Assembly (NCBI GenBank): GCA_916613615.1
Contig: OU744732.1
Coordinates: forward strand, 51,792,227 to 51,856,226
Length of the DNA: 64,000 nt
Source: Steromphala cineraria
Taxonomy: Eukaryota > Mollusca > Gastropoda > Trochida > Trochidae
Reading direction: 5' to 3'
This document shows, piece after piece, positions 20,917-63,430 of the stretch (position 1 is its first letter; each line of letters starts with the position of its first letter). Made by a program: the position numbers and the translations under genes. The notes below the pieces were generated by a model. That model saw only the letters and a program-made list of their open reading frames with translations, searched no databases and was not told where the DNA came from.

Positions 20917-20967
20917 GACGTCACAATGATGATTTAGTATTTTTCATTTAATATAACTGTATAAAAG
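20917..20967 (+). promoter_or_regulatory. Core promoter of array gene (copy 1; same offsets in all copies)
   Basis: TATAAAAG starts 48 nt upstream of the first ATG, and a CRE-like GACGTCAC starts 91 nt upstream. Both are retained at the same offset in the 19 intact copies. Further upstream a conserved block includes CTCTGACGTGTGATCAGATC and ATGCATGCTGGGATAAACTT. Copies 9, 10 and 12-14 differ by one base before the box (ATTACTGTATAAAAG instead of ATAACTGTATAAAAG). The distance predicts transcription starting about 20 nt upstream of the ATG. Confidence 0.75.
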
Positions 20968-21007
20968 ACAGCATCATTCTGCCAAATTATTCACTTTCCA
21001 AGAACCA

Positions 21008-21399
21008 ATGATGAATACTCTAACAATCGTTGCCCTTGTAGCTATGGGTAAGTAGCATGCTCTTTGTGGAATGTAGAGGAATTAAATTCATAAAGAAAAG
21101 CTTTAATGTCAATAGGTTTGAGTTCATTATAACTGCAATTTTTTCATACTGAGTGTTCACATTTGAGTTTACAAACAGCCTCTGCATTTCAATTTCATTT
21201 TTCAGTCTGCCTGGCCCTTTTCACCCAGACTGAGGCGCATGGTCATCACAGACACGGCCATCATGGTCATCACGGGCATCATGGACATAGACATGGACAC
21301 CATGGACATAGACATGGCCACCATGGACACAGGCACGGGCATCGTCATGGTCATCACGGTCATCATGGTCATGGACACCATGGCCATCATCATGGCTGA
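21008..21399 (+). CDS. Secreted His/Gly/Arg-only peptide, array copy 1
   Basis: Reference description for the family. Exon 1 is 21008-21047 (40 nt, encoding MMNTLTIVALVAM plus one base; donor GG|GTAAGT). The intron is 158 nt. Exon 2 starts at 21206 after TTTTTCAG and ends at the TGA at 21399. The product is 77 aa: signal peptide with LTIVALVAMVCLALF core, cleavage expected after TEA (residue 24), then a mature peptide of H, G and R only, organised as HGHHGHR-like heptads (21 nt in DNA). This copy lacks one four-residue block compared with the 57-residue consensus. No Cys, acidic or hydrophobic residue remains after cleavage. Such composition predicts binding of Zn, Cu or Ni, pH-dependent charge and possible condensation or antimicrobial action; none is shown by sequence alone. 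The first ATG is used here, though the adjacent second ATG is also in frame. The same DNA read in other frames gives Asp/Ile/Met-rich or Met/Ser-rich artefacts. Confidence 0.93.
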
Positions 21400-21461
21400 A
21401 AAAATGTCAACGATATGAATCTTCATGAAGTGGTCCTGGATTATATGCAAACAAGTTGACA

Positions 21462-21467
21462 AATAAA
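21462..21467 (+). terminator. Polyadenylation signal of array gene (copy 1)
   Basis: AATAAA 63 nt after the stop codon. It is present at this offset in copies 1-5, 9, 10 and 12-19, but changed to AATAAT in copies 6, 7, 8 and 11. Confidence 0.7.
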
Positions 21468-21630
21468 CACATTTTTTATTTATGAACCTGCTTTTGAATT
21501 TTTGTTGTAATAAAAAACATTTACACATGTCAATTTGATGACAGCATGTCGGGTTTAATAGGTTATTTATACCAAAGCAAGTTAAGTGTATCAATTGGGT
21601 TGATGAGGAAATTACATAAAGTTATTTATA

Positions 21631-21679
21631 GGCAAAAGTTGCTTGCCTAAAGAAAGGAATGCATGTAATTCCATTCCTT
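21631..21679. repeat. Paired small hairpins in the array spacer (copy 1)
   Basis: GGCAAAAGTTGCTTGCC (stem GGCAA/TTGCC) is followed at once by AAGGAATG...CATTCCTT (8-bp stem, 10-nt loop). The pair lies about 230 nt after the stop in the array copies. The right edge of the whole array falls inside the first of them in copy 19. The role is unknown; it could be a 3'-end or recombination-related structure. Confidence 0.6.
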
Positions 21680-21699
21680 CAAATAAATTCGTTATAATC

Positions 21700-22950: not shown

Positions 22951-23044
22951 AAAGACGTCACAATGATGATTTAGTATTTTTCATTTAATATAACTGTATA
23001 AAAGACAGCATCATTCTGCCAAATTATTCACTTTCCAAGAACCA

Positions 23045-23448
23045 ATGATGAATACTCTAACAATCGTTGCCCTTGTAGCTATGGGTAAGTAGCATGCTCT
23101 TTGTGGAATGTAGAGGAATTAAATTCATAAAGAAAAGCTTTAATGTCAATAGGTTTGAGTTCATTATAACTGCAATTTTTTCATACTGAGTGTTCACATT
23201 TGAGTTTACAAACAACCTCTGCATTTCAATTTCATTTTTCAGTCTGCCTGGCCGTTTTCACCCAGACTGAGGCGCATGGTCATCACAGACACGGCCATCA
23301 TGGTCATCACGGGCACAGACACGGCCATCATGGACATAGACATGGACACCATGGACATAGACATGGCCACCATAGACACAGGCACGGGCATCGTCATGGT
23401 CATCACGGTCATCATGGTCATGGACACCATGGCCATCATCATGGCTGA
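23045..23448 (+). CDS. His/Gly/Arg peptide gene, array copy 2
   Basis: Exons 23045-23084 and 23243-23448; 81 aa. Signal peptide variant with LAVFTQTEA. One Gly in the repeat is changed to Arg by a GGA-to-AGA change (HHRHRHG), giving seven Arg instead of six. AATAAA at 23511-23516. Confidence 0.92.
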
Positions 23449-25094: not shown

Positions 25095-25498
25095 ATGATG
25101 AATACTCTAACAATCGTTGCCCTTGTAGCTATGGGTAAGTAGCATGCTCTTTGTGGAATGTAGAGGAATTAAATTCATAAAGAAAAGCTTTAATGTCAAT
25201 AGGTTTGAGTTCATTATAACTGCAATTTTTTCATACTGAGTGTTCACATTTGAGTTTACAAACAACCTCTGCATTTCAATTTCATTTTTCAGTCTGCCTG
25301 GCCCTTTTCACCCAGACTGAGGCGCATGGTCATCACAGACACGGCCATCATGGTCATCACGGGCACAGACACGGCCATCATGGACATAGACATGGACACC
25401 ATGGACATAGACATGGCCACCATGGACACAGGCACGGGCATCGTCATGGTCATCACGGTCATCATGGTCATGGACACCATGGCCATCATCATGGCTGA
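25095..25498 (+). CDS. His/Gly/Arg peptide gene, array copy 3
   Basis: Exons 25095-25134 and 25293-25498; 81 aa with the consensus 57-residue mature peptide (34 His, 17 Gly, 6 Arg) and a LALFTQTEA signal end. It is the near twin of copy 4: identical protein and almost identical spacer, so this pair is a recent duplication or conversion. Confidence 0.93.
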
Positions 25499-26728: not shown

Positions 26729-26749
26729 AGGTTATATTAAGTATAACCT
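26729..26749. repeat. Spacer palindrome AGGTTATA-TTAAG-TATAACCT
   Basis: A perfect 8-bp inverted repeat around a 5-nt loop, about 400 nt upstream of copy 4. The same palindrome is found before most copies; one stem base is altered before copies 2 and 3 (TAAGTTATA). After copy 13 the loop is the insertion point of the DIRS-like element. Confidence 0.8.
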
Positions 26750-27144
26750 TTTGTCAACAGGGCAATGATCAGTGTAGACGTTTGACTTCGGACAAATTTA
26801 AAAAAATTAATTAGCACAATTCCAATAAAACTCTTTCCACAATCATGTGAATGCTGGTCGTACAATGCATCAAAGCTCTATTTCATGAGAGATTGTATGT
26901 TGCTGGACAGCCAATAAGATGTCACCTCTCAGTGAACACAGTGTAAACCGTTGGTAATCCTCTGACGTGTGATCAGATCAACATGCATGCTGGGATAAAC
27001 TTGTAATTTCGGAAAGAATATATGAATCCATATACTATATGCTGTGAAAAAAAGACGTCACAATGATGATTTAGTATTTTTCATTTAATATAACTGTATA
27101 AAAGACAACCTCATTCTGCCAAATTATTCACTTTCCAAGAACCA

Positions 27145-27548
27145 ATGATGAATACTCTAACAATCGTTGCCCTTGTAGCTATGGGTAAGTAGCATGCTCT
27201 TTGTGGAATGTAGAGGAATTAAATTCATAAAGAAAAGCTTTAATGTCAATAGGTTTGAGTTCATTATAACTGCAATTTTTTCATACTGAGTGTTCACATT
27301 TGAGTTTACAAACAACCTCTGCATTTCAATTTCATTTTTCAGTCTGCCTGGCCCTTTTCACCCAGACTGAGGCGCATGGTCATCACAGACACGGCCATCA
27401 TGGTCATCACGGGCACAGACACGGCCATCATGGACATAGACATGGACACCATGGACATAGACATGGCCACCATGGACACAGGCACGGGCATCGTCATGGT
27501 CATCACGGTCATCATGGTCATGGACACCATGGCCATCATCATGGCTGA
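27145..27548 (+). CDS. His/Gly/Arg peptide gene, array copy 4
   Basis: Exons 27145-27184 and 27343-27548; 81 aa, protein identical to copy 3. The spacer after this copy switches near 28760-28860 toward the type seen in copies 5 onward (CCTCTATACGCATC instead of CCTGTCTACGCATC), marking a subtype boundary. Confidence 0.93.
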
Positions 27549-29193: not shown

Positions 29194-29591
29194 ATGATGA
29201 ATACTCTAACAATCGTTGCCCTTGTAGCTATGGGTAAGTAGCATGCTCTTTGAGGAATGTAGAGGAATTAAATTCATATACAAAAGCTTTAATTTCAATA
29301 GGTTTGAGTTCATTATAACTGTAATTTTTTCATACTGAGTGTTCACATTTGAGTTTAGTCACAGCCTCTGCATTTCAATTTCATTTTTCAGTCTGCCTGG
29401 CCGTTTTCATCCAGACTGAGGCGCATAGTCATCACAGACACGGCCATCATGGTCATCATGGGCACAGACACGGCCATCATGGACATAGACATGGACACCA
29501 TGGACATAGACATGGCCACCATGGACACAGGCACGGGCATCGTCATGGTCATCATGGTCATCATGGACACCATGGCCATCATCATGGCTGA
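29194..29591 (+). CDS. His/Gly/Arg peptide gene, array copy 5 (variant)
   Basis: Exons 29194-29233 and 29392-29591; 79 aa. First copy of the subtype with an LAVFIQTEA signal end and GTCACAGCCTC in the intron. The mature peptide starts HSHHRHG (Gly to Ser) and has lost one His-Gly pair near the C-terminus. This is one of only two copies with a residue other than H, G or R in the mature part. Confidence 0.92.
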
Positions 29592-31235: not shown

Positions 31236-31639
31236 ATGATGAATACTCTAACAATCGTTGCCCTTGTAGCTATGGGTAAGTAGCATGCTCTTTGAGGAAT
31301 GTAGAGGAATTAAATTCATATACAAAAGCTTTAATTTCAATAGGTTTGAGTTCATTATAACTGTAATTTTTTCATACTGAGTGTTCACATTTGAGTTTAG
31401 TCACAGCCTCTGCATTTCAATTTCATTTTTCAGTCTGCCTGGCCGTTTTCATCCAGACTGAGGCGCATGGTCATCACAGACACGGCCATCATGGTCATCA
31501 CGGGCACAGACACGGCCATCATGGACATAGACATGGACACCATGGACATAGACATGGCCACCATGGACACAGGCACGGGCATCGTCATGGTCATCACGGT
31601 CATCATGGTCATGGACACCATGGCCATCATCATGGCTGA
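31236..31639 (+). CDS. His/Gly/Arg peptide gene, array copy 6
   Basis: Exons 31236-31275 and 31434-31639; 81 aa, consensus mature peptide, LAVFIQTEA signal end. The usual polyadenylation hexamer is AATAAT (31702-31707). Nearly identical to copies 7 and 8. Confidence 0.93.
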
Positions 31640-33285: not shown

Positions 33286-33689
33286 ATGATGAATACTCTA
33301 ACAATCGTTGCCCTTGTAGCTATGGGTAAGTAGCATGCTCTTTGAGGAATGTAGAGGAATTAAATTCATATACAAAAGCTTTAATTTCAATAGGTTTGAG
33401 TTCATTATAACTGTAATTTTTTCATACTGAGTGTTCACATTTGAGTTTAGTCACAGCCTCTGCATTTCAATTTCATTTTTCAGTCTGCCTGGCCGTTTTC
33501 ATCCAGACTGAGGCGCATGGTCATCACAGACACGGCCATCATGGTCATCACGGGCACAGACACGGCCATCATGGACATAGACATGGACACCATGGACATA
33601 GACATGGCCACCATGGACACAGGCACGGGCATCGTCATGGTCATCACGGTCATCATGGTCATGGACACCATGGCCATCATCATGGCTGA
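33286..33689 (+). CDS. His/Gly/Arg peptide gene, array copy 7
   Basis: Exons 33286-33325 and 33484-33689; 81 aa, same protein as copy 6, AATAAT at 33752-33757. A single change in the leader region (CATTCTACCAAATT) distinguishes its 5' UTR from its neighbours. Confidence 0.93.
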
Positions 33690-35335: not shown

Positions 35336-35739
35336 ATGATGAATACTCTAACAATCGTTGCCCTTGTAGCTATGGGTAAGTAGCATGCTCTTTGAGGAAT
35401 GTAGAGGAATTAAATTCATATACAAAAGCTTTAATTTCAATAGGTTTGAGTTCATTATAACTGTAATTTTTTCATACTGAGTGTTCACATTTGAGTTTAG
35501 TCACAGCCTCTGCATTTCAATTTCATTTTTCAGTCTGCCTGGCCGTTTTCATCCAGACTGAGGCGCATGGTCATCACAGACACGGCCATCATGGTCATCA
35601 CGGGCACAGACACGGCCATCATGGACATAGACATGGACACCATGGACATAGACATGGCCACCATGGACACAGGCACGGGCATCGTCATGGTCATCACGGT
35701 CATCATGGTCATGGACACCATGGCCATCATCATGGCTGA
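35336..35739 (+). CDS. His/Gly/Arg peptide gene, array copy 8
   Basis: Exons 35336-35375 and 35534-35739; 81 aa, same protein as copies 6 and 7, AATAAT at 35802-35807. This is the last of the block of four adjacent copies (5-8) of this subtype. Confidence 0.93.
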
Positions 35740-37385: not shown

Positions 37386-37789
37386 ATGATGAATACTCTA
37401 ACAATCGTTGCCCTTGTAGCTATGGGTAAGTAGCATGCTCTTAATGGAATGTAGAGGAATTAAATTCATAAACAAAAGCTTTAATGTCAATATGTTTGAG
37501 TTCATTATAACTGTAAATTTTTCATACTCAGTGTTTACATTTGAGTTTACAAACAGCCTCTGCATTTCAATTTCATTTTTCAGTCTGCCTGGCCGTTTTC
37601 ACCCAGACTGAGGCGCATGGTCATCACAGACACGGCCATCATGGTCATCACGGGCACAGACACGGACATCATGGACATAGACATGGACACCATGGACATA
37701 GACGTGGCCACCATGGACACAGGCACGGGCATCGTCATGGTCATCACGGTCATCATGGTCATGGACACCATGGCCATCATCATGGCTGA
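37386..37789 (+). CDS. His/Gly/Arg peptide gene, array copy 9
   Basis: Exons 37386-37425 and 37584-37789; 81 aa. First copy of the subtype with TTAATGGAATG in the intron start and ATTACTGTATAAAAG in the promoter. One His is replaced by Arg (HRRGHHG, CAT to CGT), and the signal end is LAVFTQTEA. Normal AATAAA. Twin of copy 10. Confidence 0.93.
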
Positions 37790-39435: not shown

Positions 39436-39839
39436 ATGATGAATACTCTAACAATCGTTGCCCTTGTAGCTATGGGTAAGTAGCATGCTCTTAATGGAAT
39501 GTAGAGGAATTAAATTCATAAACAAAAGCTTTAATGTCAATATGTTTGAGTTCATTATAACTGTAAATTTTTCATACTCAGTGTTTACATTTGAGTTTAC
39601 AAACAGCCTCTGCATTTCAATTTCATTTTTCAGTCTGCCTGGCCGTTTTCACCCAGACTGAGGCGCATGGTCATCACAGACACGGCCATCATGGTCATCA
39701 CGGGCACAGACACGGACATCATGGACATAGACATGGACACCATGGACATAGACGTGGCCACCATGGACACAGGCACGGGCATCGTCATGGTCATCACGGT
39801 CATCATGGTCATGGACACCATGGCCATCATCATGGCTGA
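39436..39839 (+). CDS. His/Gly/Arg peptide gene, array copy 10
   Basis: Exons 39436-39475 and 39634-39839; 81 aa, identical protein to copy 9 including HRRGHHG. I could find only a couple of single-base differences over the whole 2050-bp repeat, so this is a very recent tandem duplicate, or an assembly duplication. Confidence 0.93.
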
Positions 39840-41485: not shown

Positions 41486-41889
41486 ATGATGAATACTCTA
41501 ACAATCGTTGCCCTTGTAGCTATGGGTAAGTAGCATGCTCTTTGAGGAATGTAGAGGAATTAAATTCATATACAAAAGCTTTAATTTCAATAGGTTTGAG
41601 TTCATTATAACTGTAATTTTTTCATACTGAGTGTTCACATTTGAGTTTAGTCACAGCCTCTGCATTTCAATTTCATTTTTCAGTCTGCCTGGCCGTTTTC
41701 ATCCAGACTGAGGCGCATGGTCATCACCGACACGGCCATCATGGTCATCACGGGCACAGACACGGCCATCATGGACATAGACATGGACACCATGGACATA
41801 GACATGGCCACCATGGACACAGGCACGGGCATCGTCATGGTCATCATGGTCATCATGGTCATGGACACCATGGCCATCATCATGGCTGA
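41486..41889 (+). CDS. His/Gly/Arg peptide gene, array copy 11 (out-of-place subtype)
   Basis: Exons 41486-41525 and 41684-41889; 81 aa with the copy-6 protein (LAVFIQTEA). It has the copy-6 intron (GTCACAGCCTC) and the AATAAT hexamer (41952-41957), yet lies between copies 10 and 12 of the other subtype. Synonymous or silent changes (CACCGACAC; GGTCATCATGG) set it apart from copies 6-8. Confidence 0.93.
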
Positions 41890-43535: not shown

Positions 43536-43939
43536 ATGATGAATACTCTAACAATCGTTGCCCTTGTAGCTATGGGTAAGTAGCATGCTCTTAATGGAAT
43601 GTAGAGGAATTAAATTCATAAACAAAAGCTTTAATGTCAATATGATTGAGTTCATTATAACTGTAAATTTTTCATACTCAGTGTTTACATTTGAGTTTAC
43701 AAACAGCCTCTGCATTTCAATTTCATTTTTCAGTCTGCCTGGCCGTTTTCACCCAGACTGAGGCGCATGGTCATCACAGACACGGCCATCATGGTCATCA
43801 CGGGCACAGACACGGACATCATGGACATAGACATGGACACCATGGACATAGACGTGGCCACCATGGACACAGGCACGGGCATCGTCATGGTCATCACGGT
43901 CATCATGGTCATGGACACCATGGCCATCATCATGGCTGA
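43536..43939 (+). CDS. His/Gly/Arg peptide gene, array copy 12
   Basis: Exons 43536-43575 and 43734-43939; 81 aa, identical protein to copies 9 and 10 (HRRGHHG). The intron has TATGATTGAG instead of TATGTTTGAG. Normal AATAAA. Confidence 0.93.
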
Positions 43940-45585: not shown

Positions 45586-45980
45586 ATGATGAATACTCTA
45601 ACAATCGTTGCCCTTGTAGCTATGGGTAAGTAGCATGCTCTTAATGGAATGTAGAGGAATTAAATTCATAAACAAAAGCTTTAATGTCAATATGTTTGAG
45701 TTCATTATAACTGTAAATTTTTCATACTCAGTGTTTACATTTGAGTTTACAAACAGCCTCTGCATTTCAATTTCATTTTTCAGTCTGCCTGGCCGTTTTC
45801 ACCCAGACTGAGGCGCATGGTCATCACAGACACGGCCATCATGGTCATCACGGGCACAGACACGGACATCATGGACATAGACATGGACACCATGGACATA
45901 GACATGGCCACCATGGACACAGGCACGGGCATCGTCATGGTCATCATGGTCATGGACACCATGGCCATCATCATGGCTGA
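45586..45980 (+). CDS. His/Gly/Arg peptide gene, array copy 13
   Basis: Exons 45586-45625 and 45784-45980; 78 aa. The mature peptide is three residues short (one HHG block deleted near the C-terminus) and keeps His at the position that is Arg in copies 9, 10 and 12. AATAAA at 46043-46048. The DIRS-like element interrupts the spacer 1.25 kb downstream and does not touch the gene. Confidence 0.92.
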
Positions 45981-47229
45981 AAAAATGTCAACGATATGAA
46001 TCTTCATGAAGTGGTCCTGGATTATATGCAAACAAGTTGACAAATAAACGCATTTCATATTTATAAACCTGCTTTTGAATTCTTGTTGTAATAATTATAA
46101 AACATTTACACAAGTCAATTTGATGACAGCATGTCAGGTTTAATAGGTTAGTTATCCCAAAGCAAGTTAAGTGTATCAATTTGGTTGATGAGGAAATTAC
46201 ATAAAGTTATTTATAGGCAAACGTTGCTTGCCTAAAGAAAGGAATGGATGTAATTCCATTCCTTCAAATAAATTCGTTATAATCATTTTCAAACGTTGTT
46301 ACAGATTCACACGACACATTAAGAGCCCAGTGAAATTGCATATCTTCAACCATATAACAACGCATATATATGTGTGTTTCTCAGCCTTATAAGAAGGTAG
46401 CATCAGGTGAATGCAGCCATTGTTATGTAATACTTGGATATGTATCGAATGTTCAATTGTAAATGATATACATGAGATATGTATTGAACTGTTCAAGTAA
46501 ATGAGAATATGATCTAGATTTTCAATTAACAACCTTTAGCGACACACACACATAAGAAACTTCCACATCATAAAATGTGAAGATAAAACTATGAAATTAC
46601 AATCACAATGCTAATGACTTCTGTTTCCATCAATGCTTTATTTCCCCTCACATTCTTAGTAGAATTTGTCTTTGCATGTCAAAGTCGTGTCACACTTTCG
46701 TAAACATATTCTTTTCAAATTTTAAACAAACTTACATGAGCCAAACCTCAGATACAAAAACGCTTAAATGCATATATTCAAAAATTTATGTAACAATAGT
46801 GACTAATTAAACATTTCCTGAATTGCTAAGGCTGATAATAAAATTTACAATAAATGAATTCCTTCCAATTTTATCAAAAGGTCTGTTGCAAAATAAATAC
46901 CTTTCTGGCATCCACCAGAAACAAATAAATAACAAAAAAATCACTATGGATCTACAAAGTCTTTAGCTTGCCAACTTCCAATTTTTCAAAAAAATCATGA
47001 TGATATAATTACGATTCCAATAGTCGTGATTGAAATAAGGATTGGATAGACGGCCTAAGCACTTCATACACTTCAGATGAAACAAAACGCTCAGATGAAA
47101 TGAAACTGTTTCTGTTTGTAGACATGCCATTAACAACAGGTTACACTCCATACTCAATATAACACCGTTTCTTGTCAAAAGCGAAACAGTTTTAAATCTT
47201 CTATACGCATCACTCCTTATAGGTTATAT

Positions 47230-47383
47230 ATATATTTACGAATAAGTGGTTGTATTTGGGTTCGAGAGTATGCAGTGCAGGTGAACTGAGCCCGTGCAGA
47301 AAGTCACGTGTTCGGTTAGTATAAAGGGGCGGGATGCACGTGCAACAGGCACTTGAGATTCACGACTGACGGGGCAGGACTGC
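47230..47383 (+). repeat. Terminal repeat A1, with element promoter
   Basis: A 154-bp left end beginning ATATATTTACGAATAAGTGG. It contains GTATAAAGGGGCGGG, a likely TATA box plus GC box, about 80 nt before the gag ATG at 47409. It is repeated as A2 at 51386-51539; single differences include TTCGAGAG against TTCGCGAG and CACGTG against CACATG. Confidence 0.88.
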
Positions 47384-47408
47384 TGTTGCGCGTCTCGGCT
47401 GATACAAC

Positions 47409-49457
47409 ATGGATCATTATTCTGACGAGGACTTACAGGCCTCGCCGCCTCCTAAAACCTTGCCTCAACCTAAAGACCAAGATAAAGGTGATAACTTACA
47501 ATCTTTTCAACTGTTTCGTGACTATATGGATGCTAAACTTTCAATTTTGAAAAGAGAATTTGTCAGCGAATCTGAACAACTGTCTTTGTCAATCGCAAAG
47601 AAATTGAAACATGATTGCCACCCTAATTTTAAATACAAAGGAAATTCAGTACAGTATAAATTCAATTGTGATATCCTTGATGGCTTAGATGACATCAAGT
47701 CTGCCTTGTACAAAAAGGATTCTACTTCAGTTTGTGAGAAGATCGAGTCTATTTCTCTATCTGTTAAGAAAAGGAATAAACTGATACGTTTAGCCGACAG
47801 GTCTCCGGCAGGTTGGGGAGTTGTGTCAGAACTGGAGGGTACTGGAGTTGCTTCCGACTCTGAAGAAGAACGTCGATTTGAGAGGGCAGAGTCTAAGGCT
47901 CTGAGGAAACGCAGCCGAGGCCGCAGCAGCAGCTCAAGTCGTCCAAATGCCTACTCTTTCACTCAAGTCCCCCGCAACTTAGGGACTCAACAGGACATCC
48001 AAAACACGACTAACAACGCCATATCTACTTTTCGGAGCCAGAACCGGAGGGGCCAAGACCAAACCAACAGTGTTACTACTGCGGGGAGTATGGACACTGG
48101 AGACAGTCATGCCCTACAGCCAAGACTTTGTCTTCCCGCGACGTCCAGTATGCCGCAGGCGCCACAGCTGACCGGAAGTTATGGTGGGGCGGCGCCTCGG
48201 ACCGCGTCCACGGCCAGCAAGCTGACCGATTCAGGTGCTATCCCAGAGGGTCATGGTACAGTGGTCAATTCGGATTCTGACAGGATTAATCAGGCAGATA
48301 AGCATTTTCCTACGTCTGTGAAAGGACGCTTGAGATCTAAACTGGAATTTTGGGAGGAAATTGGAGCTCCAGACCTTGTGCTCCAAACTATCAGATCTGG
48401 ATATGTTATCCCTTTCGTTACAACCCCAGATAAAACTACCTCCAAAAACAATAAGTCGGCTAATTTACATTCAAGCTTTGTGGAAGTTGCTATTCTGGAA
48501 TTGCTAGATAATGGTTGCATCAGAGAAGTATTTTCACCCCCTCATGTCATTAGCCCTCTATCGGTTTCAGTTCAACAGTCTGGTAAAAAGCGTCTCATTT
48601 TAGACATGAGACTTATAAATTCACATGTCTGGAAGCAGCCAATAGTTTTTGAAAACCACGAGTCAGCTTTGCAATTAATATCCAAGCACGGTTACATGTT
48701 TAAGTTTGATCTTAAATCCGGCTATCATCATATTGATATTTGTAAAAATCAACAAACCTTCTTGGGGTTTGCATGGAAATTTGACAACAAATTGAGATAT
48801 TTTCAGTTTACTGTCTTACCCTTCGGTCTTACATCTGCCCCTTATATATTTACAAAAATGATTAGACCCCTGGTTAAATTTTGGAGAGGCAATGGTGTAA
48901 GTATAGTTGTATATCTCGACGATGGTTTCGGACATGGTCACAGTCGATCATCATGCCAGAAAGACTCGGATTTCGTAAAAGACACCTTAGCAAAAGCTGG
49001 GTTTTTGTATAACGTTGACAAATCTGTTTTGTTACCGACACAGTCCTTGGATTGGTTAGGATTTAATTGGAACACATTGCAAGATGTTGTGACAGTCCCT
49101 CAGGTAAAGCTGGATAATACCAAGCGTACAATTGTCAATTGCTTAGACGTTTTTCCCGTTTTCACGGCGAGAATGCTTGCTAAAGTCGCTGGCAAAATAG
49201 GTTCTTTATCATTTGTGTTCGGAAGTGTTTGTAGAATCATGACTAGACATTTATACAAACAGATTACTGAATGTAGAACATGGGATGCACAGTACTTCAG
49301 ACCAGCTGAGGGGTGCGTGGCGGAACTGATATTTTGGAAAGATAACTTGTCTACATTTAATTGCAAATTGTTTAAATTGGATCACTCGCCAAGCTGTGTA
49401 ATCTTCTCAGACGCTAGCAGTTTCGGGTGCGGGGCCCTTATTCAACACAGACAATAG
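47409..49457 (+). CDS. DIRS-like gag-RT-RNase H (N-terminal part), fused frame
   Basis: A 682-codon frame from ATG 47409. Residues about 1-210 are gag-like: KYKGNSVQYKFNCDILDGL, then KRNKLIRLADRSPAGW and an acidic/basic stretch with KALRKRSRGRSSSSS. The reverse transcriptase covers about residues 285-640, with RLILDMRLINSHVW, FKFDLKSGYHHIDI (first catalytic Asp), FTVLPFGLTSAPYIF and YLDD (48912-48923). RNase H begins at FSDASSFGCGALI (about residue 666), then the frame hits TAG at 49455. In this copy gag and RT share one frame only because of an upstream shift: the gag zinc knuckle is found in another frame at 48071-48112. The RT active-site residues look intact. Confidence 0.88.
   Translation: MDHYSDEDLQASPPPKTLPQPKDQDKGDNLQSFQLFRDYMDAKLSILKREFVSESEQLSLSIAKKLKHDCHPNFKYKGNSVQYKFNCDILDGLDDIKSALYKKDSTSVCEKIESISLSVKKRNKLIRLADRSPAGWGVVSELEGTGVASDSEEERRFERAESKALRKRSRGRSSSSSRPNAYSFTQVPRNLGTQQDIQNTTNNAISTFRSQNRRGQDQTNSVTTAGSMDTGDSHALQPRLCLPATSSMPQAPQLTGSYGGAAPRTASTASKLTDSGAIPEGHGTVVNSDSDRINQADKHFPTSVKGRLRSKLEFWEEIGAPDLVLQTIRSGYVIPFVTTPDKTTSKNNKSANLHSSFVEVAILELLDNGCIREVFSPPHVISPLSVSVQQSGKKRLILDMRLINSHVWKQPIVFENHESALQLISKHGYMFKFDLKSGYHHIDICKNQQTFLGFAWKFDNKLRYFQFTVLPFGLTSAPYIFTKMIRPLVKFWRGNGVSIVVYLDDGFGHGHSRSSCQKDSDFVKDTLAKAGFLYNVDKSVLLPTQSLDWLGFNWNTLQDVVTVPQVKLDNTKRTIVNCLDVFPVFTARMLAKVAGKIGSLSFVFGSVCRIMTRHLYKQITECRTWDAQYFRPAEGCVAELIFWKDNLSTFNCKLFKLDHSPSCVIFSDASSFGCGALIQHRQ
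48060..48280 (+). pseudogene. Out-of-frame gag C-terminus with zinc knuckle
   Basis: In the frame +2 relative to the 47409 start, 48071-48112 encodes CYYCGEYGHWRQSC, a perfect CX2C-X4-H-X4-C retroviral-type zinc knuckle, and this frame stays open to TGA at 48278-48280. Upstream it is closed by a stop near 48015. The gag frame has therefore been shifted between about 48015 and 48065. The original layout was probably gag ending at 48280, with pol starting in an overlapping frame. Confidence 0.8.
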
Positions 49458-50196
49458 CTTCTACATCGGCTGGAATGAGCAGGAGCTGCAGAGGAGCTCA
49501 ACATGGCGGGAACTTAAGGCAATAGAGCTGGCTTTGTGTAGTTTTGTTGATGCGGTTAAGGGAACCTCAGTCAAAATCTTCTCCGATAATCAAGCTGCTT
49601 GTAGCGTGGCCATGTACGGTAGTGCTATTTTGGAATTACAAACTTTAGCAGTTAACATTTTTCTGTTCAACAAACGTATTCATATTGATGTTGAATTCCA
49701 GTGGATTCCAAGGGAGGATAATGTTGAAGCGGACAGGTTAAGCAGAGTGGGAGATCAAGATGATTGGACTGTAGTCGACTCAGTGTTTGCAGATATCAGT
49801 GAATGGTGGGGACCTTTCACTGTTGACAGGTTCGCAGATCATACCAATAAGAAGTTAAAGCGGTTTAACTCAAGGTTCATGGTACCATGTACGGAAGCTG
49901 TAGATGCTTTCACGCAAGACTGGTCACGTGACAATAATTGGCTAGTGCCACCTTTTAGCATGATATGTAAAACCATAGACTATGTTTTATACAACGGGTT
50001 TAGGTCTACCTTAGTGATACCTCTGTGGAAATCTGCACTGTTTTGGCCACGGTTGTTCAACCGCGACGGTACTACCAAATCAGGTATATCAGGAGTGCGG
50101 GAGATCAAAAACAGGGTTATATTTGCTAAAGGTGCTGCCAAAACAATATTCGATAACAATTTCTCTGGATCAGCACTGGCTATTAGATTTTTCTAA
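49453..50196 (+). CDS. RNase H C-terminal part and methyltransferase-like region
   Basis: This frame continues pol one base out of register from the TAG-ended frame. It reads NSFYIGWNEQELQ, TWRELKAIELAL (catalytic Glu), KIFSDNQAA (Asp) and WIPREDNVEADRLSR (last Asp), completing RNase H. Residues from WWGPFTVDRFADHTNKK through EAVDAFTQDW to NWLVPPFSMI resemble the segment that follows RNase H in DIRS1/PAT elements and is usually called a DAM-like methyltransferase. The PPF is preceded by Val, not the Asp/Asn/Ser expected of an active (D/N/S)PP(Y/F/W) site. There is no ATG of its own; expression needs a frameshift, or the copy is simply mutated. Confidence 0.8.
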   Translation, partial: NSFYIGWNEQELQRSSTWRELKAIELALCSFVDAVKGTSVKIFSDNQAACSVAMYGSAILELQTLAVNIFLFNKRIHIDVEFQWIPREDNVEADRLSRVGDQDDWTVVDSVFADISEWWGPFTVDRFADHTNKKLKRFNSRFMVPCTEAVDAFTQDWSRDNNWLVPPFSMICKTIDYVLYNGFRSTLVIPLWKSALFWPRLFNRDGTTKSGISGVREIKNRVIFAKGAAKTIFDNNFSGSALAIRFF

Positions 50197-51208
50197 TTGT
50201 CTTTCAGGTGTGTTTTCACTGGGTGTGTGGAGGGAGAAACAGGAGCTGAAAGACCCTACTCTTATTAGTTTAGCTGAGAAGTTACCAGACTTCATTGTAG
50301 ACTCGAGAGCTAAGACTACTGTAAAAAACTACGAGAATAGATTTTCAAAGTTTAAGGCCTGGTGTAAGCAAGTTAGCATCCCTCATATACCAGCGTCAGA
50401 GTTTCATATAGCGTTGTATGTGTTATCTTTGAAACAGGACGGTAAGAGTCCTGCCACTATTCAGCAGACTATTTATGCCATAGGCTGGGCACATAACTTA
50501 GCAGGCTTACAAAATCCATGCCAGTCACAATTTGTTAAATCTGTGCTAGAGTCTTCACGACGAACTCTTGGTGTACAGATCAGGCGAAAAGAGCCTATTA
50601 CAGCCGAAATTCTTATAAAGTTAAAGAACAATTTTCCTGTTGACAGCTTGTTCAATCTCAGAAACTTAACATTTTGCCTAGTGTCTTTCGCTGGTTTCCT
50701 AAGGTTTTCGGAGTCATCAAATTTAAGGTATTCAGACATTGTTTTCAAGGAAGGTCACATGGTTATCTTTATAGAAAAAAGTAAAACTGACAAATATCGA
50801 GATGGTCATCACTTGGTGGTTGCCTCCACTCAAACAGAATTGTGTCCGGTTAATATCATGAAGTTATATTTAGAACAAGCATTCGAAGGTTACAGTGATG
50901 AATACCTCTTTAGGCCTCTCACTTTTTGCAGGAAGTTGAACACTTACAAGCTTAGAGGAAGCAAACCTGTCTCTTATACACGTATGAGGGAAATAATTCT
51001 AAATATGTTGGAATCTGTTGGTCTTAAGAAACAGGATTTTGGAGTACACAGCCTCAGGTCGGGAGGGGCAACAGAGGCAGCCAATGCTGGGGTGCCGGAC
51101 AGGCTGTTTGAGCGTCACGGTCGGTGGCGCTCAGAGACTGCAAAAGACTCGTATGTCAAAGATAGCCTTCTAGCTAGACTTAGCGTTTCCCAAAACTTGG
51201 GTATATAG
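50123..51208 (+). CDS. Tyrosine recombinase of the DIRS-like element
   Basis: An open frame of about 360 codons overlapping the previous one. The N-terminal SAM-like part contains DSRAKTTVKNYENRF and FHIALYVLSL. The catalytic domain has FLRFSE (Arg, about 50702), SKTDKYRDG (Lys), HSLRSGGAT (His 51047, Arg 51056), ERHGRWRSE (His/Trp) and KDSYVKDS (Tyr, 51152-51154): all catalytic positions are present. It replaces the DDE integrase of LTR elements. No in-frame ATG precedes the conserved part. CTAATTGTCTTTCAG at 50193-50207 is a good branch point plus acceptor, so the protein may be made from a spliced RNA. Termination is at TAG 51206-51208. Confidence 0.9.
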   Translation: MLKVLPKQYSITISLDQHWLLDFSNCLSGVFSLGVWREKQELKDPTLISLAEKLPDFIVDSRAKTTVKNYENRFSKFKAWCKQVSIPHIPASEFHIALYVLSLKQDGKSPATIQQTIYAIGWAHNLAGLQNPCQSQFVKSVLESSRRTLGVQIRRKEPITAEILIKLKNNFPVDSLFNLRNLTFCLVSFAGFLRFSESSNLRYSDIVFKEGHMVIFIEKSKTDKYRDGHHLVVASTQTELCPVNIMKLYLEQAFEGYSDEYLFRPLTFCRKLNTYKLRGSKPVSYTRMREIILNMLESVGLKKQDFGVHSLRSGGATEAANAGVPDRLFERHGRWRSETAKDSYVKDSLLARLSVSQNLGI

Positions 51209-51299
51209 TTGTCGTGTTTTTTTTGTGTCCAGTTGGTTTAATAAATGATTGATATGATTTAATCTTGTTATCATTGTTTGCCCGCTCTCTTAATTCTTG

Positions 51300-51385
51300 A
51301 GGCTGACGTGAACGTACCCAAATACAGAGTTGTGTTTTATTTGTAAATGTTTTATGTTCGGTTGAGTTCACGAATTAGAACATAA
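51300..51385 (+). repeat. Split direct repeat B1
   Basis: An 86-bp segment starting AGGCTGACGTGAACGTACCC and ending GAATTAGAACATAA. It is repeated as B2 at 52030-52115 and directly abuts A2. Confidence 0.9.
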
Positions 51386-51539
51386 ATATATTTACGAATA
51401 AGTGGTTGTATTTGGGTTCGCGAGTATGCAGTGCAGGTGAACTGAGCCCGTGCAGAAAGTCACATGTTCGGTTAGTATAAAGGGGCGGGATGCACGTGCA
51501 ACAGGCACTTGAGATTCACGACTGACGGGGCAGGACTGC
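51386..51539 (+). repeat. Split direct repeat A2
   Basis: Internal copy of the left terminus (A1) including the TATAAAGGGGCGGG motif. Similarity ends at ACTGC, where A1 continues to the gag leader and A2 continues to the minisatellite. Confidence 0.9.
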
Positions 51540-51574
51540 CCGCCCACCCTCCCCTAAGGTTTGTGTGTAGGTTC

Positions 51575-51722
51575 AAAGTCACTGGACTGCAACGTACTAG
51601 TCACTGGACTGCAACGACGGGTCACTGGACTGCAACGACGGGTCACTGGAACACAACGTACTAGTCACTGGACTGCAACGACGGGTCACTGGACCACAAC
51701 GTACTAGTCACTGGACTAGTAC
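51575..51722 (+). repeat. Minisatellite GTCACTGGACTGCAACGACGG
   Basis: Seven tandem units of about 21 bp, alternating between GTCACTGGACTGCAACGACGG-like and ...ACAACGTACTA-like forms. It lies in the 490-bp unique part between A2 and B2, inside the right end of the element. Confidence 0.85.
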
Positions 51723-52029
51723 TACCGAAAAGGTTTATATGTATACAATTACAACTGAAATTCGAAACTTAAGAGTTAACCAAAAGTGGAACAATTTTAA
51801 TCATATTGTGTTAACATGTGGTATCGTAGAAATGTTATTCAAGACAAGTGGTAAAGAACTATATACTGTATGTTAAAAAAGGTTTTCTAAGTGTTGCAGG
51901 TTTCCGGAACTATGGCCAGAATTTGAATACCAGAGGACGTATTCTACAATCCGGGAGATCGTTGAGGATACCAACTTTGATCGTACTCTGTACGCGTTGC
52001 TCTTGTCTCAATAAACTTGCAGCCCCGTC
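51723..52029. other. Unique part of the DIRS-like right end
   Basis: About 300 bp between the minisatellite and B2. It has short frames only and contains AATAAA near 52010, which could end the element transcript. Confidence 0.4.
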
Positions 52030-52115
52030 AGGCTGACGTGAACGTACCCAAATACAGAGTTGTGTTTTATTTGTAAATGTTTTATGTTCGGTTGAGTTCA
52101 CGAATTAGAACATAA
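52030..52115 (+). repeat. Split direct repeat B2 (right terminus)
   Basis: Right end of the element, matching B1. The next base (52116) resumes the array spacer with TAAGTATAACC. Confidence 0.9.
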
Positions 52116-52521: not shown

Positions 52522-52925
52522 ATGATGAATACTCTAACAATCGTTGCCCTTGTAGCTATGGGTAAGTAGCATGCTCTTAATGGAATGTAGAGGAATTAAA
52601 TTCATAAACAAAAGCTTTAATGTCAATATGTTTGAGTTCATTATAACTGTAAATTTTTCATACTCAGTGTTTACATTTGAGTTTACAAACAGCCTCTGCA
52701 TTTCAATTTCATTTTTCAGTCTGCCTGGCCGTTTTCACCCAGACTGAGGCGCATGGTCATCACAGACACGGCTATCATGGTCATCACGGGCACAGACACG
52801 GACATCATGGACATAGACATGGACACCATGGACATAGACATGGCCACCATGGACACAGGCACGGGCATCGTCATGGTCATCACGGTCATCATGGTCATGG
52901 ACACCATGGCCATCATCATGGCTGA
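52522..52925 (+). CDS. His/Gly/Arg peptide gene, array copy 14
   Basis: Exons 52522-52561 and 52720-52925; 81 aa. First copy after the retrotransposon, same subtype as copy 13. One His near the start of the mature peptide is Tyr (HRHGYHGHHG), the only aromatic residue in any mature peptide of the array. Normal AATAAA. Confidence 0.93.
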
Positions 52926-54571: not shown

Positions 54572-54975
54572 ATGATGAATACTCTAACAATCGTTGCCCT
54601 TGTAGCTATGGGTAAGTAGCATGCTCTTTGAGGAATGTAGAGGAATTAAATTCATATACAAAAGCTTTAATTTCAATAGGTTTGAGTTCATTATAACTGT
54701 AATTTTTTCATACTGAGTGTTCACATTTGAGTTTAGTCACAGCCTCTGCATTTCAATTTCATTTTTCAGTCTGCCTGGCCGTTTTCGTCCTGACTGAGGC
54801 GCATGGTCATCACAGACACGGCCATCATGGTCATCACGGGCACAGACACGGCCATCATGGACATAGACATGGACACCATGGACATAGACATGGCCACCAT
54901 GGACACAGGCACGGGCATCGTCATGGTCATCACGGTCATCATGGTCATGGACACCATGGCCATCATCATGGCTGA
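54572..54975 (+). CDS. His/Gly/Arg peptide gene, array copy 15
   Basis: Exons 54572-54611 and 54770-54975; 81 aa, consensus mature peptide. The signal end is LAVFVLTEA (Gln to Leu), unique in the array. Its intron and spacer belong to the copy-5 to copy-8 subtype but with AATAAA kept, so it is a second out-of-place member of that subtype. Confidence 0.93.
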
Positions 54976-56621: not shown

Positions 56622-57025
56622 ATGATGAATACTCTAACAATCGTTGCCCTTGTAGCTATGGGTAAGTAGCAGGCTCTTTGTGGAATGTAGAGGAATTAAA
56701 TTCATAAACAAAAGCTTTAATGTCAATAGGTTTGAGTTCATTATAACTGTAAATTTTTCATACTGAGTGTTTACATTTGAGTTTACAAACAGCCTCTGCA
56801 TTTCAATTTCATTTTTCAGTCTGCCTGGCCGTTTTCACCCAGACTGAGGCGCATGGTCATCACAGACACGGCCATCATGGTCATCACGGGCACAGACACG
56901 GACATCATGGACATAGACATGGACACCATGGACATAGACATGGCCACCATGGACACAGGCACGGGCATCGTCATGGTCATCACGGTCATCATGGTCATGG
57001 ACACCATGGCCATCATCATGGCTGA
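56622..57025 (+). CDS. His/Gly/Arg peptide gene, array copy 16
   Basis: Exons 56622-56661 and 56820-57025; 81 aa, consensus mature peptide, LAVFTQTEA. First of the subtype whose intron begins GTAAGTAGCAGGCTCTTTG. After the stop it has GAGAAAATTTCAACG, shared with copies 17 and 18. Confidence 0.93.
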
Positions 57026-58673: not shown

Positions 58674-59077
58674 ATGATGAATACTCTAACAATCGTTGCC
58701 CTTGTAGCTATGGGTAAGTAGCAGGCTCTTTGTGGAATGTAGAGGAATTAAATTCATAAACAAAAGCTTTAATGTCAATAGGTTTGAGTTCATTATAACT
58801 GTAAATTTTTCATACTGAGTGTTTACATTTGAGTTTACAAACAGCCTCTGCATTTCAATTTCATTTTTCAGTCTGCCTGGCCGTTTTCACCCAGACTGAG
58901 GCGCATGGTCATCACAGACACGGCCATCATGGTCATCACGGGCACAGACACGGACATCATGGACATAGACATGGACACCATGGACATAGACATGGCCACC
59001 ATGGACACAGGCACGGGCATCGTCATGGTCATCACGGTCATCATGGTCATGGACACCATGGCCATCATCATGGCTGA
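58674..59077 (+). CDS. His/Gly/Arg peptide gene, array copy 17
   Basis: Exons 58674-58713 and 58872-59077; 81 aa, same protein as copy 16. Practically identical to copy 18 over the 2052-bp repeat, including the lengthened CA run in the spacer. Confidence 0.93.
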
Positions 59078-60725
59078 GAAAATTTCAACGATATGAATCT
59101 TCATGAAGTGGTCCTGGATTATATGCAAACAAGTTGACAAATAAACGCATTTAATATTTATAAACCTTCTTTTGAATTGTTGTTGTAATATAAAACATTT
59201 ACACATGTCAATTTGATGACAGCATGTCAGGTTTAATAGGCTATTTATCCCAAAGCAAGTTAAGTGTATCAATTTGGTTGATGAGGACATTACATAAAGT
59301 TATTTATAGGCAAAAGTTGCTTGCCTAAAGAAAGGAATGGATGTAATTCCATTCCTTCAAATAAATTCGTTGTAATCATTTTCAAACGTTGCTACGGATT
59401 CACACGACACATTAAGAGCCCAGTGAAATTACATATCTTCAACCACATTACAACGCATATATATGTGTGTTTCTCAGCCTTATAAGAAGGTAGCATCAGG
59501 TGAATGCAGCCATTGTTATGTAATACGTGGATATGTATCGAATGTTCAATTGTAAATGTTATACATGAGATATGTATTGAACTGTTCAAGTAAATGAGAA
59601 TATGATCTAGATATTCAATTAACAACCTTGAGCGACACACACACACATAAGAAACTTCCACATCATAAAATTTGAAGATAAATCTATGAAATTACAATGC
59701 TAATGACTTCTGTTTCCATCAATGCTTTATTTCCCCTCACATTCTCAGTAGAATTTGTCTTTGCATGTCAAAGTCGTGTCACAATTTCGTAAACATATTC
59801 TTTTCAAATTTTAAACAAACTTACATGAGCCAAACCTCAGATACAAAAACGCTTAAATGCATATATTCAAAAGTTTATGTAACAATAGTGACTAATTAAA
59901 CATTTTCTGAATTGCTAAGGCTGATAATCAAATTTACAATAAATGAATTCCTTCCAATTTTATCAAAAGGTCTGTTGCAAAATAAATACCTTTCTGGCAT
60001 CCAAAAGAAACAAATAAATAACAAATAAATCACTATGGATCTACAAAGTCTTTAGCTTGCCAACTTCCAATTTTTCAAAAAAATCATGATGATATAATTA
60101 CGATTCCAATAGTCGTGATTGAAAATAAGGATTGGATAGACGGCCAAAGCACTTCATACACTTCAGATGAAACAAAACGCTCAGATGAAATGAAACTGTT
60201 TCTGCTTGTAGACATGCCATTATCAACAGGTTACACTCCATACTCAATATAACACCGTTTCTTGTCAAAAGCGAAACAGTTTTCAATCCTCTATACGCAT
60301 CACTCCTTAAAGGTTATATTAAGTATAACCTTTTGTCAACAGGGCAATGATCAGTGTAGACGTTTGACTTCGGACAAATTAAAACAATTAATTAGTACAG
60401 TTCCAACAAAACTCTTTCAACAATCATGTGAATGCTGGTCGTACAATGCATGAAAGCTTTATTTCATGAGAGATTGTATGTTGCTGGACAGCCAATAAGT
60501 TGTCACCTCTCAGTGAACACAGTGTAAACCGTGGGTAATCCTCTGACGTGTGATCAGATCAACATGCATGCTGGGATAAACTTGTAATTTCGGAAAGAAT
60601 ATATGAATCCATATACTATATGCTGTGAAAAAAAGACGTCACAATGATGATTTAGTATTTTTCATTTAATATAACTGTATAAAAGACAGCCTCATTCTGC
60701 CAAATTATTCACTTTCCAAGAACCA

Positions 60726-61129
60726 ATGATGAATACTCTAACAATCGTTGCCCTTGTAGCTATGGGTAAGTAGCAGGCTCTTTGTGGAATGTAGAGGAAT
60801 TAAATTCATAAACAAAAGCTTTAATGTCAATAGGTTTGAGTTCATTATAACTGTAAATTTTTCATACTGAGTGTTTACATTTGAGTTTACAAACAGCCTC
60901 TGCATTTCAATTTCATTTTTCAGTCTGCCTGGCCGTTTTCACCCAGACTGAGGCGCATGGTCATCACAGACACGGCCATCATGGTCATCACGGGCACAGA
61001 CACGGACATCATGGACATAGACATGGACACCATGGACATAGACATGGCCACCATGGACACAGGCACGGGCATCGTCATGGTCATCACGGTCATCATGGTC
61101 ATGGACACCATGGCCATCATCATGGCTGA
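60726..61129 (+). CDS. His/Gly/Arg peptide gene, array copy 18
   Basis: Exons 60726-60765 and 60924-61129; 81 aa, same protein as copies 16 and 17. Twin of copy 17; the pair is the youngest-looking duplication on the right side of the array. Confidence 0.93.
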
Positions 61130-62777
61130 GAAAATTTCAACGATATGAATCTTCATGAAGTGGTCCTGGATTATATGCAAACAAGTTGACAAATAAACGC
61201 ATTTAATATTTATAAACCTTCTTTTGAATTGTTGTTGTAATATAAAACATTTACACATGTCAATTTGATGACAGCATGTCAGGTTTAATAGGCTATTTAT
61301 CCCAAAGCAAGTTAAGTGTATCAATTTGGTTGATGAGGACATTACATAAAGTTATTTATAGGCAAAAGTTGCTTGCCTAAAGAAAGGAATGGATGTAATT
61401 CCATTCCTTCAAATAAATTCGTTGTAATCATTTTCAAACGTTGCTACGGATTCACACGACACATTAAGAGCCCAGTGAAATTACATATCTTCAACCACAT
61501 TACAACGCATATATATGTGTGTTTCTCAGCCTTATAAGAAGGTAGCATCAGGTGAATGCAGCCATTGTTATGTAATACGTGGATATGTATCGAATGTTCA
61601 ATTGTAAATGTTATACATGAGATATGTATTGAACTGTTCAAGTAAATGAGAATATGATCTAGATATTCAATTAACAACCTTGAGCGACACACACACACAT
61701 AAGAAACTTCCACATCATAAAATTTGAAGATAAATCTATGAAATTACAATGCTAATGACTTCTGTTTCCATCAATGCTTTATTTCCCCTCACATTCTCAG
61801 TAGAATTTGTCTTTGCATGTCAAAGTCGTGTCACAATTTCGTAAACATATTCTTTTCAAATTTTAAACAAACTTACATGAGCCAAACCTCAGATACAAAA
61901 ACGCTTAAATGCATATATTCAAAAGTTTATGTAACAATAGTGACTAATTAAACATTTTCTGAATTGCTAAGGCTGATAATCAAATTTACAATAAATGAAT
62001 TCCTTCCAATTTTATCAAAAGGTCTGTTGCAAAATAAATACCTTTCTGGCATCCAAAAGAAACAAATAAATAACAAATAAATCACTATGGATCTACAAAG
62101 TCTTTAGCTTGCCAACTTCCAATTTTTCAAAAAAATCATGATGATATAATTACGATTCCAATAGTCGTGATTGAAAATAAGGATTGGATAGACGGCCAAA
62201 GCACTTCATACACTTCAGATGAAACAAAACGCTCAGATGAAATGAAACTGTTTCTGCTTGTAGACATGCCATTATCAACAGGTTACACTCCATACTCAAT
62301 ATAACACCGTTTCTTGTCAAAAGCGAAACAGTTTTCAATCCTCTATACGCATCACTCCTTAAAGGTTATATTAAGTATAACCTTTTGTCAACAGGGCAAT
62401 GATCAGTGTAGACGTTTGACTTCGGACAAATTAAAACAATTAATTAGTACAGTTCCAATAAAACTCTTTCCACAATCCTGTGAATGCTGGTCGTACAATG
62501 CATGAAAGCTTTATTTCATGAGAGATTGTATGTTGCTGGACAGCCAATAAGTTGTCACCTCTCAGTGAACACAGTGTAAACCGTGGGTAATCCTCTGACG
62601 TGTGATCAGATCAACATGCATGCTGGGATAAACTTGTAATTTCGGAAAGAATATATGAATCCAAATACTATATGCTGTGAAAAAAAGACGTCACAATGAT
62701 GATTTAGTATTTTTCATTTAATATAACTGTATAAAAGACAGCCTCATTCTGCCAAATTATTCACTTTCCAAGTTCCA

Positions 62778-63181
62778 ATGATGAATACTCTAACAATCGT
62801 TGCCCTTGTAGCTATGGGTAAGTAGCATGCTCTTTGTGGAATGTAGAGGAATTAAATTCATAAACAAAAGCTTTAATGTCAATAGGTTTGAGTTTATTAT
62901 AACTGTAAATTTTTCATACTGAGTTTTTACATTTGAGTTTACAAACAGCCTCTGCATTTCAATTTCATTTTTCAGTCTGCCTGGCCGTTTTCACCCAGAC
63001 TGAGGCGCATGGTCATCACAGACACGGCCATCATGGTCATCACGGGCACAGACACGGACATCATGGACATAGACATGGACACCATGGACATAGACATGGC
63101 CACCATGGACACAGGCACGGGCATCGTCATGGTCATCACGGTCATCATGGTCATGGACACCATGGCCATCATCATGGCTGA
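62778..63181 (+). CDS. His/Gly/Arg peptide gene, array copy 19 (last)
   Basis: Exons 62778-62817 and 62976-63181; 81 aa, consensus mature peptide. The bases just before the ATG are AGTTCCA instead of AGAACCA, and the intron keeps GTAAGTAGCATGC as in copies 1-15. The repeat stops about 250 nt after the stop codon, inside the first spacer hairpin. Confidence 0.92.
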
Positions 63182-63430
63182 GAAAATGTCAACGATATGA
63201 ATCTTCATGAAGTGGTCCTGGATTATATGCAAACAAGTTGACAAATAAACGCATTTAATATTTATAAACCTTCTATTGAATTGTTGTTGTAATATAAAAC
63301 ATTTACACATGTCAATTTGATGACAGCATGTCAGGTTTAATAGGTTATTTATCCAAAAGCAAGTTAAGTGTATCAATTTGGTTGATGAGGAAATTACATA
63401 AAGTTATTTATAGGCAAAAGTTGCTTGCCT

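Follow-up and report, generated by a model that had tools for sequence, protein, structure and literature searches.

A 64,000-nucleotide (nt) stretch of the genome of the gastropod Steromphala cineraria (assembly GCA_916613615.1, contig OU744732.1, positions 51,792,227 to 51,856,226 of the forward strand), referred to here as the window, contains a tandem array of nineteen intact genes for a small, predicted secreted peptide composed almost entirely of histidine (His, H), glycine (Gly, G) and arginine (Arg, R). With its many near-identical open copies, each provided with its own promoter motifs, it is a concertedly evolving dosage array, and despite the turnover of its units, selection has probably maintained the start exon and the composition of the mature peptide. 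As for the function, our tentative preference is for a peptide that is secreted in bulk and would bind metal as part of an extracellular material. The array had been pointed out in an earlier note on this DNA, the claims of which are taken up together with the results that bear on them.

Organisation of the array and anatomy of the copies

The array runs head to tail on the forward strand over ~44 kilobases (kb), beginning with a 5'-truncated, frame-broken copy at ~19,157 and ending abruptly at ~63,435. The earlier note had placed it at 20,917 to 63,430, which agrees with the right-hand end to within a few bp, whereas the start lies further to the left, at the broken twentieth copy; this copy is followed by an array-like 3' spacer that is 94.5% identical to the unit. 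The nineteen intact two-exon genes described before were all recovered with splice sites and an open exon 2. Their near-constant spacing of 2,050 base pairs (bp) was likewise confirmed, with unit lengths of 2,037-2,052 bp in the 17 units that have both ends inside the array. Unit 14, which is interrupted by a retrotransposon, and unit 19, which is cut, were left out of this range.

In all 19 copies, exon 1 comprises 40 nt of coding sequence and is followed by a GTAAGT donor, a 158-nt intron, the acceptor TTTTTCAG and an exon 2 that stays open up to its TGA stop codon, and the splice-site sequences are identical throughout. Relative to the ATG, every copy carries TATAAAA at -48, GACGTCA at -91 and TGACGT at -182, in agreement with the TATA box and the site resembling a cAMP response element (CRE) previously attributed to each gene; we take GACGTCA to represent 7 of the 8 bases of the CRE. 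The signal AATAAA, said to be mostly present, is found 62 nt 3' of the stop codon in 15 of the 19 copies, and AATAAT stands at its position in copies 6, 7, 8 and 11. These four copies fall in one of the similarity groups described below and may read through or use another polyadenylation site.

The two-exon model is needed for a translation start, since an in-frame methionine between the preceding stop codon and exon 2 was found in none of the copies (0/19) when they were read unspliced, and an unspliced gene was rejected for this reason. Antisense open reading frames (ORFs) of ~143 amino acids (aa) were also rejected, being mirror images of the repeat. From this anatomy, we infer that the genes are spliced and expressed. 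A chance origin of the H/G/R run is excluded by its probability of p ~5e-53 for 57 codons, with H/G/R making up ~12% of codons at the base composition of the window, and by mononucleotide shuffling of the entire window, where the longest run in 20 replicates was 7 codons. No Rfam family reached the gathering score in the window, and no tRNA genes were found in it.

The predicted peptide

The predicted precursor of 77-81 aa consists of a 24-residue signal-like leader ending in TEA, with the signal peptide and the cleavage site assigned by eye, and a mature part of 53-57 residues. As previously noted, eleven of the 19 copies have an identical mature sequence of 57 aa, which contains 34 His, 17 Gly and 6 Arg (60%, 30% and 10%, respectively) and is referred to here as the standard peptide. 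Three of the eight other mature parts share a common H-to-R change and five are unique, namely one with a G-to-R change, one with a serine (Ser) and two residues fewer, one with an H-to-Y change and two length variants. The earlier description of a peptide restricted to His, Gly and Arg holds strictly for 17 of the 19 copies, but not for copy 5 with its Ser and copy 14 with its tyrosine (Tyr). Cysteine (Cys) and lysine (Lys) are absent from the mature peptides, and Tyr is absent from 18 of the 19.

The mature part begins with H-x-H in 19/19 copies (H-G-H, replaced by H-S-H in copy 5), presumably an amino-terminal copper- and nickel-binding (ATCUN-type) motif. The standard peptide contains 23 HxH motifs, and the heptad HGHHGHR occurs at residues 9, 16, 23 and 30. 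Its model net charge, calculated with an assumed independent pKa of 6.3, is ~+6 at pH 8.1, +8 at pH 7.4 and +38 at pH 5, the last value being an upper guess because of the assumption of independent pKa values. AlphaFold, run on the single sequence without an alignment, returned a predicted template modelling score (pTM) of 0.14 and a mean predicted local distance difference test (pLDDT) of 68, and DSSP reported no structure on this model.

Unit turnover and selection

Pairwise differences between the units average 2.5% and reach a maximum of 3.9%. There are 18 distinct unit sequences among the 19; only units 17 and 18 are identical, over a length of 2,052 bp, and a number of further pairs are ~0.1% apart. 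In the difference matrix, read by eye, the units fall into the similarity groups 1-4; 5-8 with 11 and 15; 9, 10 and 12-14; and 16-19, where the distance of unit 14 is overstated, as 39 retrotransposon bases are included. Related units are partly interspersed, as would be expected of unequal crossing-over or conversion, and the nearest partner of several units differs between blocks of the sequence, which also fits these processes; in the first block, the distance of unit 14 is again overstated by the retrotransposon bases. The repeated unit includes the spacers, and these are homogenised as well.

Variation is unevenly distributed along the unit. Exon 1 has 0/40 variable columns compared with 19/158 in the intron (nominal Fisher p 0.016), and the mean pairwise difference of the mature region, 0.0087, is below the values for the intron (0.044), the 3' region (0.043) and the spacer (0.028). 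On the basis of the 16 full-length copies, used on both sides of the comparison after copies 1, 5 and 13 had been dropped, replacement sites of the mature region are variable at 3/138 positions as opposed to 160/1,807 noncoding positions (nominal Fisher p 0.0036), and its synonymous sites (3/33) are similar to noncoding DNA. The three coding indels, of 12, 9 and 6 nt, are all multiples of 3, compared with 1/7 in noncoding DNA (nominal p 0.033). Selection on the peptide is considered probable because variation in exon 1 and at the mature replacement sites is lower than in noncoding DNA. The 19 open copies, the unchanged TATA and CRE-like motifs and the constraint on the mature peptide also support the earlier view of a dosage amplification of a secreted His-rich peptide.

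Neighbouring genes and other features of the window

Three predicted genes for low-complexity secreted proteins, designated A, B and C, are located 3 to 13 kb to the left of the array edge (Table 1). A and B are predicted to be secreted Gly-rich proteins with PPPPTTT linkers and charged tails, and their N-terminal similarity is 42% over 38 columns. C contains a glutamine run, and its terminal exon codes for Asn-Phe, 18 glycines and a lysine. The first coding exon of all three is 40-46 nt long and ends in phase 1 within the signal-like peptide, and that of the array genes is 40 nt long and also ends in phase 1. Since many secreted proteins have signal exons of phase 1 and the splice models were picked by eye, this shared architecture is suggestive only. 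Taken together, the predicted neighbourhood is suggestive of a set of secreted matrix-type genes. The ORFs of A and B had no Pfam match at E<=0.001, and relatives of B were sought in Pfam only. Other elements of the left flank are an ORF for a reverse transcriptase (RT) of the long interspersed nuclear element (LINE) type with RVT_1 and zf-RVT domains (1633-3501, reverse strand) and, seen by eye, a long inverted repeat resembling a miniature inverted-repeat transposable element (MITE) at ~17240-17400 and an inverted repeat upstream of neighbour A at ~12560-12830.

Genes 13 and 14 are separated by a 4.9-kb element that lies inside unit 14, ~360 bp 5' of the gene 14 TATA box. It contains an RT ORF (PF00078, E 2.8e-18) and a tyrosine recombinase ORF (PF00589, E 1.5e-9), both assigned with Pfam, together with split direct repeats, one set of 158 bp (98% identity) and another of 86 bp (100%), which we take to be the layout of an Ngaro-type retrotransposon of the DIRS (Dictyostelium intermediate repeat sequence) order. 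Among the 120 of 824 RT matches listed, the named relatives are from Mytilus (4 species), Haliotis and the brittle star Amphiura, with 47-52% identity; this would suit a host among marine invertebrates, perhaps molluscs, but transposons say little about the genome that carries them. As the insertion is present in one unit only, it is presumably younger than the last duplication of that unit. The element shares these features with Ngaro/DIRS retrotransposons and is a passenger outside the peptide system. A 21-bp tandem repeat array lies inside it at 51577-51717.

Table 1. Features of the window. Array genes are given from exon 1 to the stop codon.
Feature	Position	Strand	Description
Neighbour B	6531..7731	-	exon 1 7731-7692, exon 2 6940-6531; predicted secreted, Gly-rich
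Neighbour A	11450..12334	-	exon 1 12334-12289, exon 2 11805-11450
Neighbour C	14775..16158	+	exons 14775-14814, 15450-15618, 16092-16158; predicted secreted
Degenerate leftmost copy	19157..20562	+	H/G/R repeats, frame broken; exon 1 and promoter absent
Gene 1	21008..21399	+	mature 53 aa
Gene 2	23045..23448	+	mature 57 aa, one G-to-R
Gene 3	25095..25498	+	standard 57-aa mature peptide; exon 1 25095-25134, intron 25135-25292, exon 2 from 25293, mature 25325-25495
Gene 4	27145..27548	+	standard mature peptide
Gene 5	29194..29591	+	mature 55 aa, one Ser
Gene 6	31236..31639	+	standard mature peptide; without AATAAA
Gene 7	33286..33689	+	standard mature peptide; without AATAAA
Gene 8	35336..35739	+	standard mature peptide; without AATAAA
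Gene 9	37386..37789	+	one H-to-R (RR)
Gene 10	39436..39839	+	one H-to-R (RR)
Gene 11	41486..41889	+	standard mature peptide; without AATAAA
Gene 12	43536..43939	+	one H-to-R (RR)
Gene 13	45586..45980	+	mature 54 aa
Ngaro/DIRS-like retrotransposon in unit 14	47226..52115 (ends approximate)	+	
Gene 14	52522..52925	+	one H-to-Y
Gene 15	54572..54975	+	standard mature peptide; signal variant FVLTEA
Gene 16	56622..57025	+	standard mature peptide
Gene 17	58674..59077	+	standard mature peptide
Gene 18	60726..61129	+	standard mature peptide; whole unit identical to unit 17
Gene 19	62778..63181	+	standard mature peptide; unit ends abruptly at ~63,435

Proposed function and alternatives

In the reading that we favour, one small gene for a secreted peptide would have been amplified for dosage, with the copy number supplying bulk. 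Each copy would use its own TATA promoter, and its spliced transcript would be translated into the precursor of 77-81 aa, from which signal peptidase would release, by cleavage after TEA, a disordered peptide of 53-57 aa starting with His-Gly-His. With up to 34 imidazoles and its HGHHGHR heptads, this peptide would bind Zn(II) or Cu(II), and at near-neutral pH or on contact with metal it may cross-link or condense with co-secreted Gly-rich proteins. The resulting extracellular material could be a layer of the shell or periostracum, a byssus-like thread, a jaw- or radula-like hard part, or mucus. Unequal crossing-over or conversion would homogenise the copies, and selection would retain the peptide. 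The earlier note had left the role open among metal-related, antimicrobial and structural functions. We lean towards the structural, metal-cross-linked one because of the gene neighbourhood and the known His-Gly biomaterials.

Several points weigh against this reading. The shell or byssus context is one that we infer, the known covalent cross-links are unavailable to a peptide that has no Cys, no Lys and, in 18 of 19 copies, no Tyr, and the His-Gly materials proteins cited below are larger and less His-rich. Neighbour A yielded 19 candidates in a protein search, none of them significant, and had no match in Pfam, where neighbour C had two insignificant matches only, leaving A and C without a family; as mentioned, the splice models of A, B and C were picked by eye. 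With regard to selection, slippage among repeats of 3n bases yields in-frame indels without any selection, and the comparison of synonymous with replacement sites in the mature part alone (3/33 vs 3/138) is not significant (p 0.087). The part of the signal peptide encoded by exon 2 is variable in 4/32 columns, which is noncoding-like, and over the whole signal peptide the replacement diversity of 0.014 exceeds the synonymous diversity of 0. The stretch from the TATA box to the ATG has 6/48 variable columns and a mean difference of 0.017, as compared with 0.020 in the rest of the upstream region, and does not stand out from its surroundings in conservation. Finally, all p-values are nominal because the copies are related to each other.

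The strongest rival, somewhat unlikely in our estimate, is a metal-boosted antimicrobial. The peptide would then be a polyhistidine cation released from the cell, with a low charge in seawater and a high one at acid pH, which has a copper/nickel site of the ATCUN type in its N-terminal His-Gly-His and acts on microbes together with Zn or Cu. The short signal-like leader, the linear cationic mature peptide of 53-57 aa, the modelled charges at pH 8.1, 7.4 and 5 given above and the H-x-H start in all copies are compatible with such a role. However, many antimicrobial gene clusters are diversified, whereas the mature peptide of the array is conserved. Furthermore, it lacks a hydrophobic face, since 17 of the 19 copies consist of H, G and R only, and the predicted neighbours appear by eye to be matrix-like rather than immune-like. 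A precedent in favour of the antimicrobial role is shepherin I, a peptide of Gly, His and Tyr that forms fibrils and becomes strongly antifungal upon binding of Zn(II) (PMC10698721).

Quite unlikely is a role as an extracellular metal carrier, store or detoxifier, in which a peptide of the haemolymph or of a gland would buffer Zn, Cu, Ni or Cd. Metal tolerance is known to arise through gene amplification, and the His content of 60% and the 23 HxH motifs would suit a metal buffer. The consensus TGCRCNC of the metal response element (MRE) was found in 0/19 copies within 450 bp upstream on either strand, which is weak evidence against a metallothionein-like role because the copies do not count as independent observations and such a role does not require MREs. 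Cys, another metallothionein-type feature, is present in 0/19 mature peptides. An abundant plasma histidine-rich glycoprotein of Mytilus edulis is, by its description, His-rich, metal-binding and extracellular like the array peptide (PMC6530089), but it is a protein of 63 kDa.

It is very unlikely that the array is a recent, largely non-functional tandem expansion, that is, a satellite-like 2-kb unit of which few or no copies are expressed. The repetition of the whole unit including the spacers, the identity of units 17 and 18, the retrotransposon in one unit, the absence of AATAAA from 4/19 copies, the broken copy at the left edge and a promoter stretch that is not clearly more conserved than the spacer would all fit this explanation. 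On the other hand, all 19 complete copies are open with intact splice sites, the mature peptide is constrained and the coding indels preserve the frame. An assembly artefact inflating the copy number, which the earlier note had raised, is unlikely to the point of being highly improbable, given 18 distinct sequences among the 19 units, differences of up to 3.9%, an insertion specific to one unit and array ends that both pass into other sequence, in spite of the identity of units 17 and 18 over 2,052 bp and the several pairs that are ~0.1% apart.

Search for relatives and novelty

A protein search with the precursor gave 2,627 word-sharing candidates, none of which reached E<=0.001, a weak negative because composition correction lowers the scores of H/G/R sequences in a database of 5.8 billion sequences. 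Named molluscan proteins are represented in this database, as the RT matches to Mytilus and Haliotis show. No family was found at E<=1 in Pfam, and no match at E<=10 among 177,635 sequences of the PDB. The strings HGHHGHRHG and HHGHRHGHH had no occurrence in the literature searched, where sequences printed in spaced blocks would escape, and HGHHGH was not found there jointly with histidine, glycine and arginine. Nor did the titles and abstract openings of the papers listed reveal one on a His-rich tandem array.

Secreted His-rich peptides and homogenised dosage arrays are each of a known kind; what appears to be new is their combination and the extreme composition. To our knowledge, the array peptide, if expressed, is among the most His-rich secreted animal peptides, and the locus would be unusual as a dosage array in which a single low-complexity sequence is repeated almost without variation. 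For Zn/Cu materials or metal-activated defence, the peptide would be a small, naturally occurring ligand, and the array appears to be a case in which selection keeps a composition and a frame that are nearly invisible to standard homology tools. A bolder and rather unlikely proposal is that of a novel animal peptide family in which a near-homopolymeric metal ligand with 60% His, supplied in quantity by a homogenised array of tandem genes, would serve as a free, mobile, metal-gated cross-linker of the neighbouring Gly-rich matrix proteins, so that hardener and scaffold would be encoded in one "material locus".

Comparison with known systems

The earlier note knew of no named family with a mature composition of three letters, a claim that is qualified by shepherin I from the plant Capsella, which consists of Gly, His and Tyr only (PMC10698721). 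Shepherin I is short, combines Gly and His with one other letter and forms Zn-driven fibrils, but it has 28 aa with 68% Gly and 29% His in GGH repeats, compared with 57 aa, 60% His and HGHHGHR heptads in the array peptide (PMC10698721). Gly-dominated GGH repeats are absent from the latter with its 34 His, 17 Gly and 6 Arg, and the likeness is one of composition.

The combination of a signal peptide, assigned here by eye, and a repetitive Gly/His-rich mature sequence is also that of the His-Gly structural biomaterial proteins. The jaw protein of Glycera is Gly/His-rich as well; its sequence was not found in the literature searched. In the Nereis jaw, a Gly-rich protein with 27 mol% His binds Zn by three His on average, and removal of the metal lowers stiffness and hardness by >65% (PMC6477608). 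The Nereis jaw protein Nvjp-1 and Nai11527, the latter with a signal peptide and 29% Gly, are secreted, Zn-associated Gly/His-rich proteins of marine invertebrates with several similar transcripts (PMC13120676, PMC6477608). They differ from the array peptide in that Nai11527 has ~53 kDa (partial) and 16% His and the Nereis virens protein 27 mol% His, and the passages on Nvjp-1 and Nai11527 do not mention a tandem array. Mussel preCols likewise possess secreted, His-rich, Zn-coordinating segments (PMC6477608); these are collagen-end domains of 20-100 aa with ~20 mol% His, whereas the array peptide is free-standing. Silk-like Gly-rich proteins recur in His-metal materials (PMC4944945).

Tandem arrangement is frequent among the shell matrix genes of bivalves and gastropods (PMC4759782), and in the zebra mussel the transcripts with the highest mantle specificity include shematrin-like ones (PMC9210306). 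Like the array genes, shematrins and other tandem shell matrix genes are repetitive, basic, lineage-specific and tandemly duplicated (PMC4759782, PMC9210306). Shematrins are Gly-rich and not His-rich, in contrast to the array peptide, in which His (60%) and not Gly (30%) dominates, and the five genes of P. fucata are distributed over two scaffolds (PMC4759782), as opposed to the 19 near-identical units found here.

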